From a virus, in the IMG/VR virus record IMGVR_UViG_3300032116_000108, positions 1 to 64,000 of that record: a stretch of 64,000 nucleotides of DNA, one strand, 5' to 3'. The position numbers were made by a program, and so were the translations under genes. The notes under the pieces are model-generated. The model was given only the letters and a program-made list of their open reading frames with translations, was not told the DNA's origin and made no database searches. Of this stretch, positions 5,535 through 64,000 are shown one piece after another. Position 1 is the stretch's first letter. The number at the start of each line of letters is the position of its first letter.

Positions 5535-5819
5535 TTATTGAAATTCATATGGTGTATCGTCCATGAATGTAAAAATTTCATCGTCCATAAATTCTTTAAA
5601 AGAACTACTTGTAAAACAATACTCACATTCATTATTGTCAATTACTTTTATTGTGTATGATGGGCTTTCCTCAAAAAAAGAAGGTAGAGTAAAATCATAC
5701 GGTAATGTACTAGTTGTTCCGATATATAAACAAGTTGCCGTTGATGTGCAATTATCACAAACCCATATATCAAGTGGAAATGTACCTGTTGTTGAATTTA
5801 ATGTTACAATTTGTGCCAT
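5535..5819 (-). CDS. 94-aa Cys-containing beta-domain protein, copy 1 of 3
   Basis: Unknown function. It is related to the two proteins at 13498-13785 and 13801-14088. All three have an N-terminal strand, then a CD..x..C motif (here VCDNCTSTATCLYIG), a hydrophobic middle and a second motif IDxx(G/E)C.Y (here VIDNNECEYCF). The spacing suggests one small Ig-like or SprB-like domain as a stand-alone protein. The C-terminal tail FMDDTPYEFQ resembles FMDGFGYIFQ of the copy at 13498. Each copy lies directly after a Pro-Thr-tract protein and before a fibre gene, so it is probably a minor fibre component or adaptor. Gap to the upstream gene is 1 nt, implying coupling. Confidence 0.6.
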   Translation of the reverse strand: MAQIVTLNSTTGTFPLDIWVCDNCTSTATCLYIGTTSTLPYDFTLPSFFEESPSYTIKVIDNNECEYCFTSSSFKEFMDDEIFTFMDDTPYEFQ

Positions 5820-5820
5820 A

Positions 5821-7437
5821 TTAACAATTTCCGTTTACGTTACAATATTCAGTTAATAGTCCTGTTGGGCTTACTTCAAATATTTTTGTACCATATTTTA
5901 TATATGTCACAAAAACAGGTGTTGTTAAATTTATATCTTCATACACATAAACACCACTAACTAATGATTGTCCGTCAGCATATATTGTTTGAGTTGTGCC
6001 TCCATTTGTAAGTTCACAAACAGGACAATTTAAGCTAAACTCACCTTTTACATTCCATGAAGTTACTGTTGGTGTTGGTGTTGGTGTTGGTAATAAACAT
6101 GATTCACATGATTTAAATACAGTGAAAGAAGTTCCTGTAAATACCTCTTGTTGTGACCATATAAATCCAGCAGGTGGTGTATAACCAACAAAGTTACCAA
6201 TATAGGTATAACAACTACCTGAAGAAGATTTTAAAACATCTCCAACATCCACAGTAGATCCTGGATATGTGTATTGAATGATCATACTGTTATTTGTACA
6301 AGATGTGAAAACAAATTGTGTCGATACAGGAAACGTTGGTGTTGGCGTTGGCGTCGGTGTTGGAGTTGGAGTCGGTGTTGGAGTCGGTGTTGGAGTAGGT
6401 GTCGGTGTTGGGGCAATACAAGACGTACATCCTGATATATAAATAGCTTGAACTGAATTTAAATAATTTGAAACGCTACCAAATATATCATTCTGGTATG
6501 TCACACATTTATAATTTCCATTAATAACCGCCAAAAATGTTGTTCCTGTTGTAACTCCTGATCCTGAAAAGGTTATTGGTCCTGTAACATAATAACTTAA
6601 ACCCGTATCACAGTCTACTAATTGTTTAACATTTGTACAATCAAATAAACCACTATCAACAACATACGTAACTGATGATAAAATTGGATACATAGTTGGT
6701 GTAGGTGTAGGTGTAGGTGTTGGTGGTGGTAAAGGTGATGGTGATCCTGATATTGAAATAGAAACCGTAAAACCTGAACATAGATTTGGCGTAGGGGTTG
6801 GGGTAGGTGTCGGAGTTGGCGTTGGTGTCGGGGTAGGCGTTGGTGTTGGTGTTGGTATTTCACATTCTAATAATATATCAAAATCCAACAATGAGCAAGG
6901 GTCTGAAGGTGTTGAACCTGAAGGGCAAAGTCCTGTATTTAGTATAGTTGAATCCAAATCGGGACACGTTTGTGTTGTTGGTTGTGATCCATAAAATAAG
7001 CAATTTCCAGTAAGTCCTGTTGATAAACACCATTTTGTGTTGTTATAAAACAAATACCCAGGATTCGTCCCTCCAGTCCAAAAAGGATAACCATTTTCAT
7101 GACCAGCAACATTATAATTACCTGTTATTGCGGTATATCCACTAAAATTAATCGATACACAAACTTCATTACTACAACAATCACCTGTGGCACATAAAGT
7201 ATCTGAACAGTCAGTTTGTAATGTGTATGTTCCATCTAAATTTGTAAAAGTTGTTGCAGTAAATCCAGAAGTAAATGCTGAAACTATGGTGTAGCACCCA
7301 TTTGGTACTACTGGATCACCAGAAAAATGATATGTTAATCCTGTAGTTGCGGTTCCACCCGTTGCAATCCATGCAACGTCATCTGTCACGTATTTGTAAG
7401 CACCATAACAACAACCTTGAAATCTTAAATCTGCCAT
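5821..7437 (-). CDS. Multi-domain fibre protein with four Pro-Thr tracts
   Basis: This 538-aa protein consists of small Cys-containing beta domains joined by alternating Pro-Thr tracts at about residues 193-217, 236-248, 341-368 and 448-457. The N-terminus contains many Cys (for example [12 protein letters not shown]). The tracts are expected to be extended linkers. Such Thr-rich linkers are typical O-glycosylation targets in other organisms, and two glycosyltransferase genes lie immediately upstream. No signal peptide or membrane segment is seen. An exact TATTTATA box lies 16 nt before the start, so it may open a transcription unit with the 94-aa protein and short fibre. A role in adhesion or fibre spacing is inference. 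Confidence 0.65.
6066..6092. repeat. Pro-Thr coding repeat, tract 4
   Basis: Short run of GGTGTT units (plus strand) encoding alternating Pro-Thr near the C-terminus of the 538-aa protein. Confidence 0.8.
6333..6413. repeat. Pro-Thr coding repeat, tract 3
   Basis: About 80 bases of GTTGGN hexamers encoding some 13 Pro-Thr pairs. Third codon positions vary freely (GGT, GGC, GGA, GTA, GTC), so the tract is kept at protein level and is not a fresh slippage product. Confidence 0.85.
6694..6730. repeat. Pro-Thr coding repeat, tract 2
   Basis: Short run of GGTGTA hexamers followed by GGTGGTGGT, encoding Pro-Pro-Pro then Pro-Thr pairs between two small domains. Confidence 0.8.
6786..6857. repeat. 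Pro-Thr coding repeat, tract 1
   Basis: About 72 bases of degenerate GGNGTN hexamers, the N-terminal-most tract of the 538-aa protein. Confidence 0.85.
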
Positions 7438-59882: not shown

Positions 59883-62800
59883 TTATACGTCATCGAACGA
59901 TGCTCCTGTTGGTGTGATAACAAACTCTATGTCTATGTATTCTAACGCTCTTGTTGGTTTCAAGAAGATTTTACCCGTTAAAGTATTTGAATCCAAATCT
60001 TCAGGAGTATTAGAAACAGTAACTCTAAAGTCAATTAAACCTCTATCTCTTCTGATTGAATCCAAGATTGGGTTAACCGCATCTAAGAAATCTTGTCTCA
60101 CTTTGTCGTCATTTTGTTCAAATAACAATCTAACCGCAACCGCTGAAATTAACTTTCTTGCTTGTAGTAACAATCTTCTAACGTTAATTCTATCTAAAGC
60201 GGATTCTCTAATTTGTAAAGTTTTATTACCCCAAATAACCGTACCAACATCAGAGAAAGTAGCTATTGGATTAATTCTTCCTTTATATAGTGTATCTCTA
60301 TCTTCTTGAGTTAGTTTCTTTCTTGCTTTAATAGAGTTAACCAAACCTCTTGTGTAACCAGCCGATGCGAACCAAGGGAATGCAATATTATCGGTTAATG
60401 CTAAGTTTTTAGTTACCTCACCTGTTGGTGGAAGATAAATTTGAGTATTATTTACAGAATCTCTTGTCAAAATCCACGGATAGTAAGTTGCTGTGTAATT
60501 TGAATCAATTCCTGTATTCTCTAAATTATCTACCACTTCTTGTGGATAAATTAATCCTTCCGTTAAGTCACTGTATGAAGGTAAGAAAAGATTAAAGTCA
60601 GGTGTTGTACAAATGTAAATTGAGTCAGCCCTATCAGTTTCAACAACATCTATAGCGTTTTCAACAAGATTTGAATTATTAACATAATCAATTCCTGGTG
60701 TAACAAAAACGTTAATGTTAGTTGCTTCAGGATTTGCAAATGATGTTTGACCCCATAGATATGCATAATAGTCAGTATTTGCCCACACTTCTTGGTTAGG
60801 TCCTGTAATTTGTTTAAATGCCCCCCATCCTGTTGCTGTTGGGTATGTGGCAGACGCCGCAGCACCTTTTTTATAACCTGATTGACCTAATTGGAATCTA
60901 TCGGTATTGGTTCTACTTTCTCTGTATATATCCCAACCATCAAAACCGCCAGCGGCTAATAATGTAAATTTACGAGTATTTAATCTAAAATATGCATTAT
61001 CTGAATCCGTAGGTTCAGAGTTGAAAGAAGAAACCCCAACCTCAAAAGCCGAAGTATTAGCAGACATAAGTACATCAAACATAGTAACTATAGTTGCTCC
61101 ACTATCCATGTGGAAACCTTTTGTCTTGTAACCCCATTCTGATCCTGTAGTATCTACCGCAATATTTGAAGGTAATTGTTTTCCTTTATAATTAAAGAAG
61201 TCATAATCTATTCCTGTAATATTAGATATACCTAAATAAGCCCTTCTTGGATTTTCTCCATTTGAGATTACTGGATTATCTCCGCCCGCTGATGAACCAA
61301 ATGGTGGGTTATATATTACTTCACCAGGTGTTAAGTATTTAGTTTTATAAATAACAAAAGGAGGGGTTGCAGTTTGGTATTGTCTAGAAATATAACCCTC
61401 AAATCCACAAGGTAATGCATCGGTTGGGTACTCTTCACTTAACTCAACCATTATGTATTTAGAATTTAGTTGGTATTCTCCATTTGCGGTACCAACTTTG
61501 TTTGCCACAAAATTATTAAGATTAGGATCCATTGAACAATTTGTGAAACTTTCAATTACTCTAACGTTTTGATCATTATCATAAAAGTCTCTTACAAAAA
61601 TATCAAACGTTCCATTATTAAATGAAATATTCCCAATAGAAATCTTAACAAGTCTGTTAGAGGCATCTCCATCTGAAATAAGTTTGAATTTAAATAATTT
61701 ATAAACTTTGTTACCTCTTAATTCAGAAACAACAAATGGAGTTTCAGGTGTTTGGTATTGTTCTAAATAAAAACCTAAAGTGTCGTTATCTCCACTTCTT
61801 GCATCATCAATAGCGATAAAGTCACAATACAAACCTCTAACTTTACCGGCCCTATAACCTGATGTTAATAGACTACTGTAAGATTCCTCAACAAATAAAG
61901 GAACCTCATTTCTATCTTTAGCAAAATTAGACCTACCAAATATTTTAGAAATATATCTACTATCTGTTGAAAGGAGTGAAGTTTCAAAACTAAAAGTGTC
62001 ACTATCTTTTGTAATACCTGAAATAACAAATGTACCGTATGGGTCTTTAGTAATTCCTGAATAATTTCCTGAACATACCATAATTGCGTCACTTGTACCA
62101 CTAACTTCATAAACAGGACCATCATCTGTTGAATATGTTGATATACCTCTTGATCTTAAAGTTGCAACTACTAAATCGTCATAATCAGAATATGGTGTAC
62201 CTGAATAGAATGTTGCATATAATTTACAAGTACCTGTAAATTGTGAGGTAGTTGCGCCTGTGCCAATAGCATCAAGAGCAGCACCAAAACCAAAACCATA
62301 ATAACTTCCAACACTATTAGTTTTAGTATAATCAAATAATGAGTAATACCAAGGGTCGTTAACGTCCGAACTTAAATCTGCATTTGCTAAAATTACATTA
62401 TCAACACCAAAAGTTTCAGTTGTTGCAGAAACAGGAACTCCAAATAATGTAGTACCGGTTACTTGGTTAAACGTTCCTCCACTTACTGTTCCCCAAAATA
62501 CTGCGTTACCTACTGTTGCTCCACTACCACCACTTGCAAAATTATTAATTTTATTTGATAAGAAATTTATAAAATCTTGATTTAATGATGAAGTACCTCC
62601 ATTAAATGTTGTATAGTTGTTATAAAATATTGATGATAACAATGATGACGGGTTAGTTACTGTAACATTTGCACTTGAACCTGTTGTACCTGTGAAAGTT
62701 AATGTGTATGATGTGCTAACACCTGTTGCCGCTATTGTTGATGTATCGGGGTTTCCTATCGTTGTAATAGACCAAGATGGTCCCGCATCATAACCCGATA

Positions 62801-63095
62801 AACCAAGAACTCTTGTTACAAAAAGTTGGTTAGATTGTTGCAAATAAGATTTTGCAATATAAGATGTTTCATATTTAGGAATTTGAGTATTAACAAATTT
62901 TTCAGGGCTTGTGCCACCGAAATAAACTTGATACTCGTCAAAACTTGTAATGAAGATTGGTTCAAATGCCGGACCTTGTAGTGTTTCACCTACAATACCT
63001 AATGTTGTTACACCGACACTTTGAGCCACAAAAGTTAAATCTCTTTCTGATGTATAAACACCTGGAGATACAAATACTTTGTTAGTTGAAGCCAT
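59883..63095 (-). CDS. Tail sheath protein, T4 gp18-like
   Basis: This 1070-aa protein is the contractile sheath subunit. The N-terminal signature VFVSPGVYTSERDLTF with a following GIVGETLQGP matches gp18-type proteins. The C-terminal conserved core is also clear: LPPTGEVTKNLALTDN, a segment with APWF-like ASAGYTRGL, then INVRRLLLQARKLISAVAV and DFRVTVSNTPEDLDSN. T4 gp18 has 659 aa, so about 400 extra residues lie in the middle, most likely extra surface domains. Start is 137 nt from the plus-strand regulator. A TATTTATA box is 32 nt upstream. Confidence 0.9.
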   Translation of the reverse strand: MASTNKVFVSPGVYTSERDLTFVAQSVGVTTLGIVGETLQGPAFEPIFITSFDEYQVYFGGTSPEKFVNTQIPKYETSYIAKSYLQQSNQLFVTRVLGLSGYDAGPSWSITTIGNPDTSTIAATGVSTSYTLTFTGTTGSSANVTVTNPSSLLSSIFYNNYTTFNGGTSSLNQDFINFLSNKINNFASGGSGATVGNAVFWGTVSGGTFNQVTGTTLFGVPVSATTETFGVDNVILANADLSSDVNDPWYYSLFDYTKTNSVGSYYGFGFGAALDAIGTGATTSQFTGTCKLYATFYSGTPYSDYDDLVVATLRSRGISTYSTDDGPVYEVSGTSDAIMVCSGNYSGITKDPYGTFVISGITKDSDTFSFETSLLSTDSRYISKIFGRSNFAKDRNEVPLFVEESYSSLLTSGYRAGKVRGLYCDFIAIDDARSGDNDTLGFYLEQYQTPETPFVVSELRGNKVYKLFKFKLISDGDASNRLVKISIGNISFNNGTFDIFVRDFYDNDQNVRVIESFTNCSMDPNLNNFVANKVGTANGEYQLNSKYIMVELSEEYPTDALPCGFEGYISRQYQTATPPFVIYKTKYLTPGEVIYNPPFGSSAGGDNPVISNGENPRRAYLGISNITGIDYDFFNYKGKQLPSNIAVDTTGSEWGYKTKGFHMDSGATIVTMFDVLMSANTSAFEVGVSSFNSEPTDSDNAYFRLNTRKFTLLAAGGFDGWDIYRESRTNTDRFQLGQSGYKKGAAASATYPTATGWGAFKQITGPNQEVWANTDYYAYLWGQTSFANPEATNINVFVTPGIDYVNNSNLVENAIDVVETDRADSIYICTTPDFNLFLPSYSDLTEGLIYPQEVVDNLENTGIDSNYTATYYPWILTRDSVNNTQIYLPPTGEVTKNLALTDNIAFPWFASAGYTRGLVNSIKARKKLTQEDRDTLYKGRINPIATFSDVGTVIWGNKTLQIRESALDRINVRRLLLQARKLISAVAVRLLFEQNDDKVRQDFLDAVNPILDSIRRDRGLIDFRVTVSNTPEDLDSNTLTGKIFLKPTRALEYIDIEFVITPTGASFDDV

Positions 63096-63127: not shown

Positions 63128-63135
63128 TATAAATA
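63128..63135 (-). promoter_or_regulatory. TATTTATA box before the tail sheath gene
   Basis: Exact match in minus sense, 32 nt from the sheath ATG, the same spacing as for the tail tube gene. Read on the plus strand it is TATAAATA, 96 nt ahead of the RHH gene. Confidence 0.5.
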
Positions 63136-63184
63136 CAATCATTTAAAGCAAAAAACACTTATAAAATGTAATTATTTAAGATGT

Positions 63185-63213
63185 GGCAGAAATAATTCTA
63201 CCTTTTTTCTGCC
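63185..63213. other. Inverted repeat upstream of the RHH gene
   Basis: GGCAGAAA and TTTCTGCC arms (8 bp) separated by 13 nt lie 18 nt before the RHH start. It could be the operator of the small regulator or a bidirectional terminator; I cannot decide from sequence. Confidence 0.45.
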
Positions 63214-63231
63214 CTAATTATTTACTTTATT

Positions 63232-63387
63232 ATGAAAAAAATTAAAAACATTAAAATTTCAGAAGAATCACATAAACTATTAAAAGAGTATTGTGAAAAA
63301 AAAGGATTTAAAGTATATAAGTTTTTAGAAAACTTAATTATAAAAAATTGCCAAAAAGAAAAAGACATTTACGGTGAAGATTTATAA
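63232..63387 (+). CDS. Ribbon-helix-helix (Arc/CopG-like) regulator, 51 aa
   Basis: The only plus-strand gene in the window. The 51-aa product begins MKKIKNIKISEESHKLLK, followed by EYCEKKGFKVYKFLENLIIK. This is the Arc/MetJ/CopG pattern: a short basic strand, then two helices separated by a GF turn, with hydrophobic spacing for dimerisation. A dimeric DNA-binding role is likely. It runs convergently into the structural gene on the other strand and overlaps its end by 6 nt. An 8-bp inverted repeat lies just upstream. It is below the length that most gene callers report. Confidence 0.65.
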   Translation: MKKIKNIKISEESHKLLKEYCEKKGFKVYKFLENLIIKNCQKEKDIYGEDL

Positions 63388-64000
63388 TAATTTTACAACT
63401 GTTTTAATAATAGATTCTTTTGTTATATCTTCTTTATAAACTACAATTTTTAAAACGTCTCCATTATTTACTTGTATTAGTGATAAGTTGTCCCCGTAAA
63501 AATTATTATTAATAAAAACAGAATAACCGTTAGCACAAGAATCAATAGCAGTAATTGTACCACCACTTGTGTTTGAAAAGTATGGTTGTGTTGATGATTT
63601 TACGCAAACAGTACCATAATTTCCAGATACTGTTGGTAGGGTAATGGTTGTACCTGAACAATTAGTATAGATTAAATTGTTATTTGTTATTGATGAGTAT
63701 TCTGCAGAAAAACAGTTAATAATATTTGTGGCACTATCAACTAAGATATCGGCATCGTACCTCATTACCTCAACCAATTCTGTATTTCCTGAAACAAATA
63801 AAAAATCTAAATCAAAATTATCGGGTCTTGGAGGTTCTATCTTTACTTTTCTACCTCTAGTTCTTGTATCTACTTCAAACATAGAAACTTGTCTAGATAT
63901 TGCAGGGGCAATTGTAAATTCTTCTTCATCTAATAAAAACCCCATAAGTGTTAGTTTATAGGTTTGAATATAATATTTTCTTTTTTCTATATCTTTTGCC
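63382..64000 (-). CDS. Virion structural protein, 5' end outside window
   Basis: The frame is open without a stop to the window edge, and the residues before the first ATG at 63945 (KDIEKRKYYIQTYKLTL) look coding and run smoothly into MGFLLDEEEFTIAPAISRQV. I therefore treat 63945 as an internal Met and the gene as partial; a start at 63945 would give 187 aa. The phrase 'F.L.G.LLDEEEF..APAISR' is familiar from neck-proximal structural proteins of environmental T4-like phages. The C-terminus is a beta domain with Thr/Asn-rich loops. It lies upstream of the sheath, where neck or sheath-terminator genes would be expected. Confidence 0.55.
   Translation of the reverse strand, partial: AKDIEKRKYYIQTYKLTLMGFLLDEEEFTIAPAISRQVSMFEVDTRTRGRKVKIEPPRPDNFDLDFLFVSGNTELVEVMRYDADILVDSATNIINCFSAEYSSITNNNLIYTNCSGTTITLPTVSGNYGTVCVKSSTQPYFSNTSGGTITAIDSCANGYSVFINNNFYGDNLSLIQVNNGDVLKIVVYKEDITKESIIKTVVKLL

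Follow-up and report, generated by a model that had tools for sequence, protein, structure and literature searches.

What does a regulator gene of some 50 codons control when it lies on the opposite strand beside the tail sheath gene of an uncultured phage? In tailed phages, virion genes are usually regarded as being under block-wise control from one class of late promoter. The 64,000-nt window analysed here, part of an 80,132-base IMG/VR virus contig, contains an ORF of this kind (translation, MKKIKNIKISEESHKLLKEYCEKKGFKVYKFLENLIIKNCQKEKDIYGEDL), which is easily overlooked at this length and in this orientation, and which the initial annotation described as a ribbon-helix-helix (RHH) regulator and as the only plus-strand gene. 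The latter description holds for the convincing genes of the window but not for the whole record, in which plus-strand blocks lie at 65187-69161 and 76247-80038. One further plus-strand ORF in the window (5563-5856, 97 aa) overlaps the end of the gene at 5821-7437, has no above-cut-off family match and is probably spurious.

By comparison with its relatives, the RHH gene is under purifying selection and is not a chance ORF, because the same frame recurs at the same place, the median dN/dS is 0.175 (below 1 in every one of the 942 usable pairs) and variation is greatest at codon position 3. The RHH protein as scan query gave 161 confirmed stretches, the best 80 of which were kept, and a scan with the sheath protein gave many relatives; in these scans, the frame lies on the opposite strand at the same place in all loci holding the upstream side except one (L047), and it is broken in two (L004 and L116). 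Scans that started from distant sheath proteins found the gene in all 69 loci of one set and in 65 of 66 of another. The sequences compared are metagenomic contigs, and the counts are of non-redundant regions rather than of independent events: the same two neighbours flank the gene in 191 of the 192 regions with readable flanks, among relatives whose sheath identity falls to about 60%, and the KN[LI]KI core is likewise kept in 191 of 192. This bears out the conservation at one position that had been suggested as a check on the gene. In long relatives the gene is single copy, bar one weak second match that lies outside the sheath locus (239561-239674 on the plus strand of the 281,269-base record G001, E 1.8e-7). 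A tblastn search with the RHH protein against 50,697 phage records gave no match, the RHH alignment, scanned against genomes of bacteria and archaea, picked up no relative, and we found no paper linking an RHH regulator with the tail sheath.

The assignment of the product as an Arc/CopG-type RHH protein, made from the sequence of the 51-aa frame alone, is supported by profile matches and by a structural model. The PHROG family phrog_582, named 'Arc-like repressor', matches all 63 diverse aligned members; the Pfam matches of the window's protein are to RHH families, all under their cut-offs; weak Pfam similarity to RepB-RCR_reg and ParG was also seen, and RHH-type profiles recur across the members in both collections. 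The AlphaFold monomer (mean pLDDT 78.7) has an extended N-terminal segment followed by helices at residues 11-24 and 28-40 and a less certain C-terminal tail; DSSP assigns no strand to the isolated monomer. In a Foldseek search, the top PDB match is P22 Arc (1b28, probability 0.98), followed by RHH proteins including ParG and CopG, with E-values above 0.1 owing to the very small size of the protein, and a second structural aligner returned mostly RHH proteins (best Z 5.8). The predicted beta-alpha-alpha monomer is thus accompanied by the sequence signature of the RHH class. Thirteen residues are invariant in the 63 members (K5, N6, K8, I9, H14, L17, C21, E33, I36, C40, D45, Y47 and G48), of which K5, N6 and K8 belong to the predicted DNA-facing strand; the invariance of H14, C21 and C40, and of D45, Y47 and G48 in the tail, is unusual.

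The neighbourhood is set out in Table 1. The product of the divergent gene matches phrog_23, tail sheath, with an E-value of 7e-54 and carries the Pfam sheath C-terminal domain, so that the initial identification of a sheath gene next door is backed by both collections; the gap between the RHH and sheath start codons is 136 nt, close to the 137 nt first given. The gene on the other side is indeed convergent, but its description as neck-type was not upheld, as its 409-aa product matched no family in Pfam or PHROG. The RHH ORF ends 6 nt into this gene; at most a few nucleotides are shared by the two, whose ends abut exactly in 96 of 146 loci, and the junction showed no terminator-like site. The adjacent co-transcribed toxin gene that marks a type II antitoxin of the RHH class is absent, both neighbours lying on the other strand in the relatives.

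Table 1. Features of the sheath-RHH region (positions are those of the window unless stated)
Feature	Position	Strand	Remarks
Tail sheath gene	59883..63095	-	1070 aa; divergent from RHH gene
Candidate sheath promoter box	63129..63135	-	TATTTAT on minus strand (ATAAATA on plus); 56 bp from heptad 1
TTTTTTG element	63149..63155	-	13 bp upstream of sheath box
Candidate RHH promoter box	63173..63178	+	TATTTA; 12 bp before heptad 1
Heptad array	63185..63213		GGCAGAA-ATAA-TTCTACC-TTTT-TTCTGCC
Heptad 1	63185..63191	-	GGCAGAA on plus strand (TTCTGCC on minus); inverted copy
Heptad 2	63196..63202	+	TTCTACC; 11 bp from heptad 1
Heptad 3	63207..63213	+	TTCTGCC; 11 bp from heptad 2
Second candidate RHH promoter box	63219..63224	+	TATTTA; after heptad 3
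RHH regulator gene	63232..63387	+	51 aa; C-terminal tail KDIYGE conserved
Convergent gene	63382..64000 (to 64611 in record)	-	409 aa; function unassigned

Between the two divergent genes, the initial annotation noted an 8-bp inverted repeat (GGCAGAAA/TTTCTGCC). The repeat is real but incomplete: its arms are the outer pair of an array of three heptads with the consensus TTCTRCC at an exact 11-bp period, the third copy standing exactly between them. Across 127 non-redundant regions each heptad follows this consensus, with heptad 1 inverted and the most variable, and 125 of them have TTTT as the linker from heptad 2 to heptad 3. The three-heptad pattern occurs once in the window at up to 3 mismatches and in none of 100 shuffles; an array score of at least 16 of 21 was reached in 186 of 192 regions, compared with 28 of 2,000 shuffles. 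In 11 long records, paired direct heptads with at most 1 mismatch are found nowhere but at this locus, and the absence of a second strong paired site in them speaks against a genome-wide regulon. An RNA hairpin was also rejected: the pairing of heptad 1 with heptads 2 and 3 does not exceed that in shuffles, and there is no RNA-type covariation, so that the array is read as a DNA rather than an RNA element. In one locus (L053) the middle heptad is also flipped, and one lineage (L199, L200 and L210) has kept the RHH gene but shows no recognizable heptads ahead of the sheath gene; its operator may have diverged. Regular subsites near the gene's own promoter, as in RHH operators, lie beside the RHH gene in nearly all relatives and are the putative binding sites of its product. 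Within 63150-63213, the spacing of an A6 tract and of the linkers between heptads, which consist of A and T only, is close to whole helical turns, so this region may be intrinsically curved.

Promoter-like boxes stand on both sides of the array. The ATAAATA core of the sheath box is invariant in the intergenic alignment, and the box preceded at 13 bp by TTTTTG was matched exactly 84 times in 1.69 Mb from relatives, every time at a sheath promoter. The sheath-gene box also occurs in relatives of Flavobacterium phage immuto (TATTTATA-type), despite which the stretches searched in that clade contained no RHH relative. On the RHH side, most regions have TATTTA 12-13 bp ahead of heptad 1 and 58 have it past heptad 3, the window carrying both placements. 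In the record and its relatives, coding-strand TATTTAT is found 10-24 or 35-49 nt before many starts, and within 45 nt of the start in 80 of 186 genes; two minus-strand examples are upstream of 55163 and 57123. Judged by this position, TATTTAT is probably a promoter class of this phage group. Late promoters of the T4 type have the form TATAAATA ahead of late genes, on the coding strand. Such a promoter directed at the RHH gene was considered for the invariant ATAAATA and dropped, as the enriched coding-strand motif is TATTTAT and not ATAAATA, and so was a MotA-box-like TTGCTTTA near the sheath box, as conservation ends beyond TTTTTTG.

The feature that ties the array to the sheath gene is its distance from the sheath box. 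In the 127 non-redundant regions, 56 bp separate the box from heptad 1 in 94 cases, 57 bp in 31, 55 bp in one and 67 bp in one, the last (L053) being a register effect; these distances rest on strict heptad scoring, as under orientation-free scoring some arrays are read one period (11 bp) out of register (46, 67 and 68). Over the same regions the flanking distances drift, from 28 to 55 between the sheath ATG and the box and from 9 to 34 between heptad 3 and the RHH core. On a sheath tree of 125 tips, the stretch of about 56 bp between box and heptad 1 underwent 6 length changes, compared with 69 for the roughly 40 bp to its left and 37 for the roughly 27 bp to its right. The spacing is 55-57 bp in 41 of the 42 regions that lack an RHH box before heptad 1, and therefore the RHH promoter alone is no explanation for it; a third set of loci again gave 56 or 57 wherever the array was recognizable. 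Because the spacing is fixed while the flanks drift, the array and the sheath promoter appear to evolve as one unit. The sole locus found without the RHH gene (L047) also lacks heptads 2 and 3 and has a shorter spacer, while the sheath box and CAAAAAAC are retained; this may be one natural case in which the spacing was lost together with the protein, on a 6.5-kb contig that is possibly misassembled.

Taken together, the array and the fixed 56/57-bp distance strongly suggest that the RHH protein controls itself, the sheath gene or both. We propose a local module, with about an even chance of being right, in which the RHH protein on the heptads combines autorepression with an action on the divergent sheath promoter. 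Dimers, as expected from the fold, would bind cooperatively, one per TTCTRCC heptad, and at one helical turn apart would be aligned along one face of the DNA. The bound protein would turn off its own promoter, because in most lineages the heptads begin 12-13 bp past the RHH TATTTA, at about the predicted transcription start. Assuming a start about 7 bp after each box, heptads 1 to 3 would be centred near +4, +15 and +26 of the RHH promoter and near -67, -78 and -89 of the sheath promoter. Centres near +4, +15 and +26 are a standard position for a repressor. Located some 65-90 bp ahead of the predicted sheath start, the same array would also act on the sheath promoter, where the RHH protein could contact polymerase or bend the DNA, and late sheath transcription would be set by the level of the RHH protein. 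We slightly favour activation of the sheath gene over its repression, because activators that contact RNA polymerase are positioned like this, upstream and within 1 bp of a fixed distance from a promoter box.

The proposal draws on these heptad positions and on known RHH systems. RelB dimers bind one helix face and require exact subsite spacing (PMC2812701). Omega, the RHH-type ParB protein of plasmid pSM19035, binds as dimers to non-palindromic heptads, direct and inverted, at promoter-overlapping sites (PMC9499535). However, Omega arrays consist of 7-10 heptads without gaps (7-bp period), whereas here three heptads lie at an 11-bp period with 4-bp linkers, and no ParA partner was seen beside the RHH gene. 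An Omega-type assignment, for which at least four contiguous 7-bp repeats and a ParA partner would be expected, does not fit a gene flanked by a sheath gene and a gene of unassigned function, and PF07764 matches only 4 of the 63 members. AmrZ of Pseudomonas aeruginosa, an RHH protein that both activates and represses (PMC3325190), is a precedent for the proposed dual action, but it is a cellular regulator of many genes and the likeness is one of fold. P22 Arc is the closest match in structure and in PHROG name, and is likewise a small single-domain RHH protein acting at repeated operator subsites. The protein studied here differs from Arc in being encoded among late virion genes beside the tail sheath, in its three heptads of mixed orientation, and in its invariant H14, C21 and C40 and conserved KDIYGE tail.

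Small phage RHH proteins often repress their own genes, and heptads 12-13 bp past the RHH box, as in most regions, are in the classic place for an autorepressor. The RHH protein might thus control its own gene only, with the sheath promoter as a bystander and the spacing a product of, for example, two divergent polymerase complexes. We consider this unlikely, in view of the sheath-box spacing that persists in all but one of the regions without an RHH box before heptad 1 and of the drift on both flanks; moreover, a dedicated self-only regulator has no evident purpose. A divergent regulator and its target sharing one operator form a common repressor layout, and the closest fold match, Arc, is a repressor, which would suit a bound RHH protein that also restrains the sheath promoter, delaying sheath synthesis until late or capping its amount. 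At its distance upstream of the predicted sheath start, however, the array would not block polymerase directly, so that looping or spreading would be needed, and repression of both genes seems rather improbable to us.

Two further readings were considered. The single strong array per long record and the weak RepB-RCR_reg and ParG similarities would be compatible with a genome-handling site (for partition, packaging or replication control) bound by the RHH protein in the manner of plasmid RHH-type ParB and parS, and RHH ParB proteins also bind promoter-overlapping sites (PMC9499535). We regard such a site as very unlikely, since no ParA-like neighbour is present among the adjacent genes inspected, since the three heptads are spaced whereas Omega needs at least four contiguous ones for full ParA activation (PMC9499535), and since the fixed link to the sheath box would have no role in it. 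The initial annotation also raised the possibility of an antisense source for the convergent gene. Transcripts of two genes that end against each other with no terminator-like site between them could overlap, and the plus-strand transcript might then regulate its neighbour, or the repeat might act as an RNA hairpin. The strong protein-level selection on the RHH gene, the heptads' lack of stem covariation and the flipped middle copy of L053 all speak against this; with genes that only abut or overlap by a few nucleotides and no conserved antisense element seen, an antisense or RNA role appears extremely improbable.

The local module is itself faced with several observations. The lineage that keeps the RHH gene without recognizable heptads counts against it, and the loss in L047 would make the module dispensable at least once, unless that contig is misassembled. 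In the 58 regions with TATTTA after heptad 3, the array would lie upstream of the RHH start, which weakens simple autorepression there, and another factor spanning the region could explain the 56/57-bp constraint. A more speculative extension, which we think quite unlikely to be correct, is a one-gene, one-target feedback controller, in which the three-heptad array, fixed relative to the sheath promoter, would be the chief operator of the RHH protein in the genome, and the invariant cysteines and histidine and the KDIYGE tail would sense some signal, perhaps a tail-assembly partner or polymerase, and so tune sheath synthesis to assembly.

Several relatives carry a second small opposite-strand gene, a lone bS21 gene opposite in strand to its neighbours (L324-L327, in records G009, G003, G011 and G002). 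In the available text of a report on bS21 phages (PMC9723584), opposite-strand bS21 marks phages whose predicted hosts are freshwater Bacteroidetes, and the tail sheath gene is among the most transcribed genes of these phages; the relatives just named share the bS21 arrangement, while that text does not mention an RHH gene. The host of this large uncultured phage group is, on such grounds, probably a member of the Bacteroidota. Across the group, the synthesis of one of the most abundant virion proteins appears to be under a conserved regulator dedicated to it, with an operator at a precise spacing, which would provide a small and testable system for investigating dosage control of a single structural protein in a phage.
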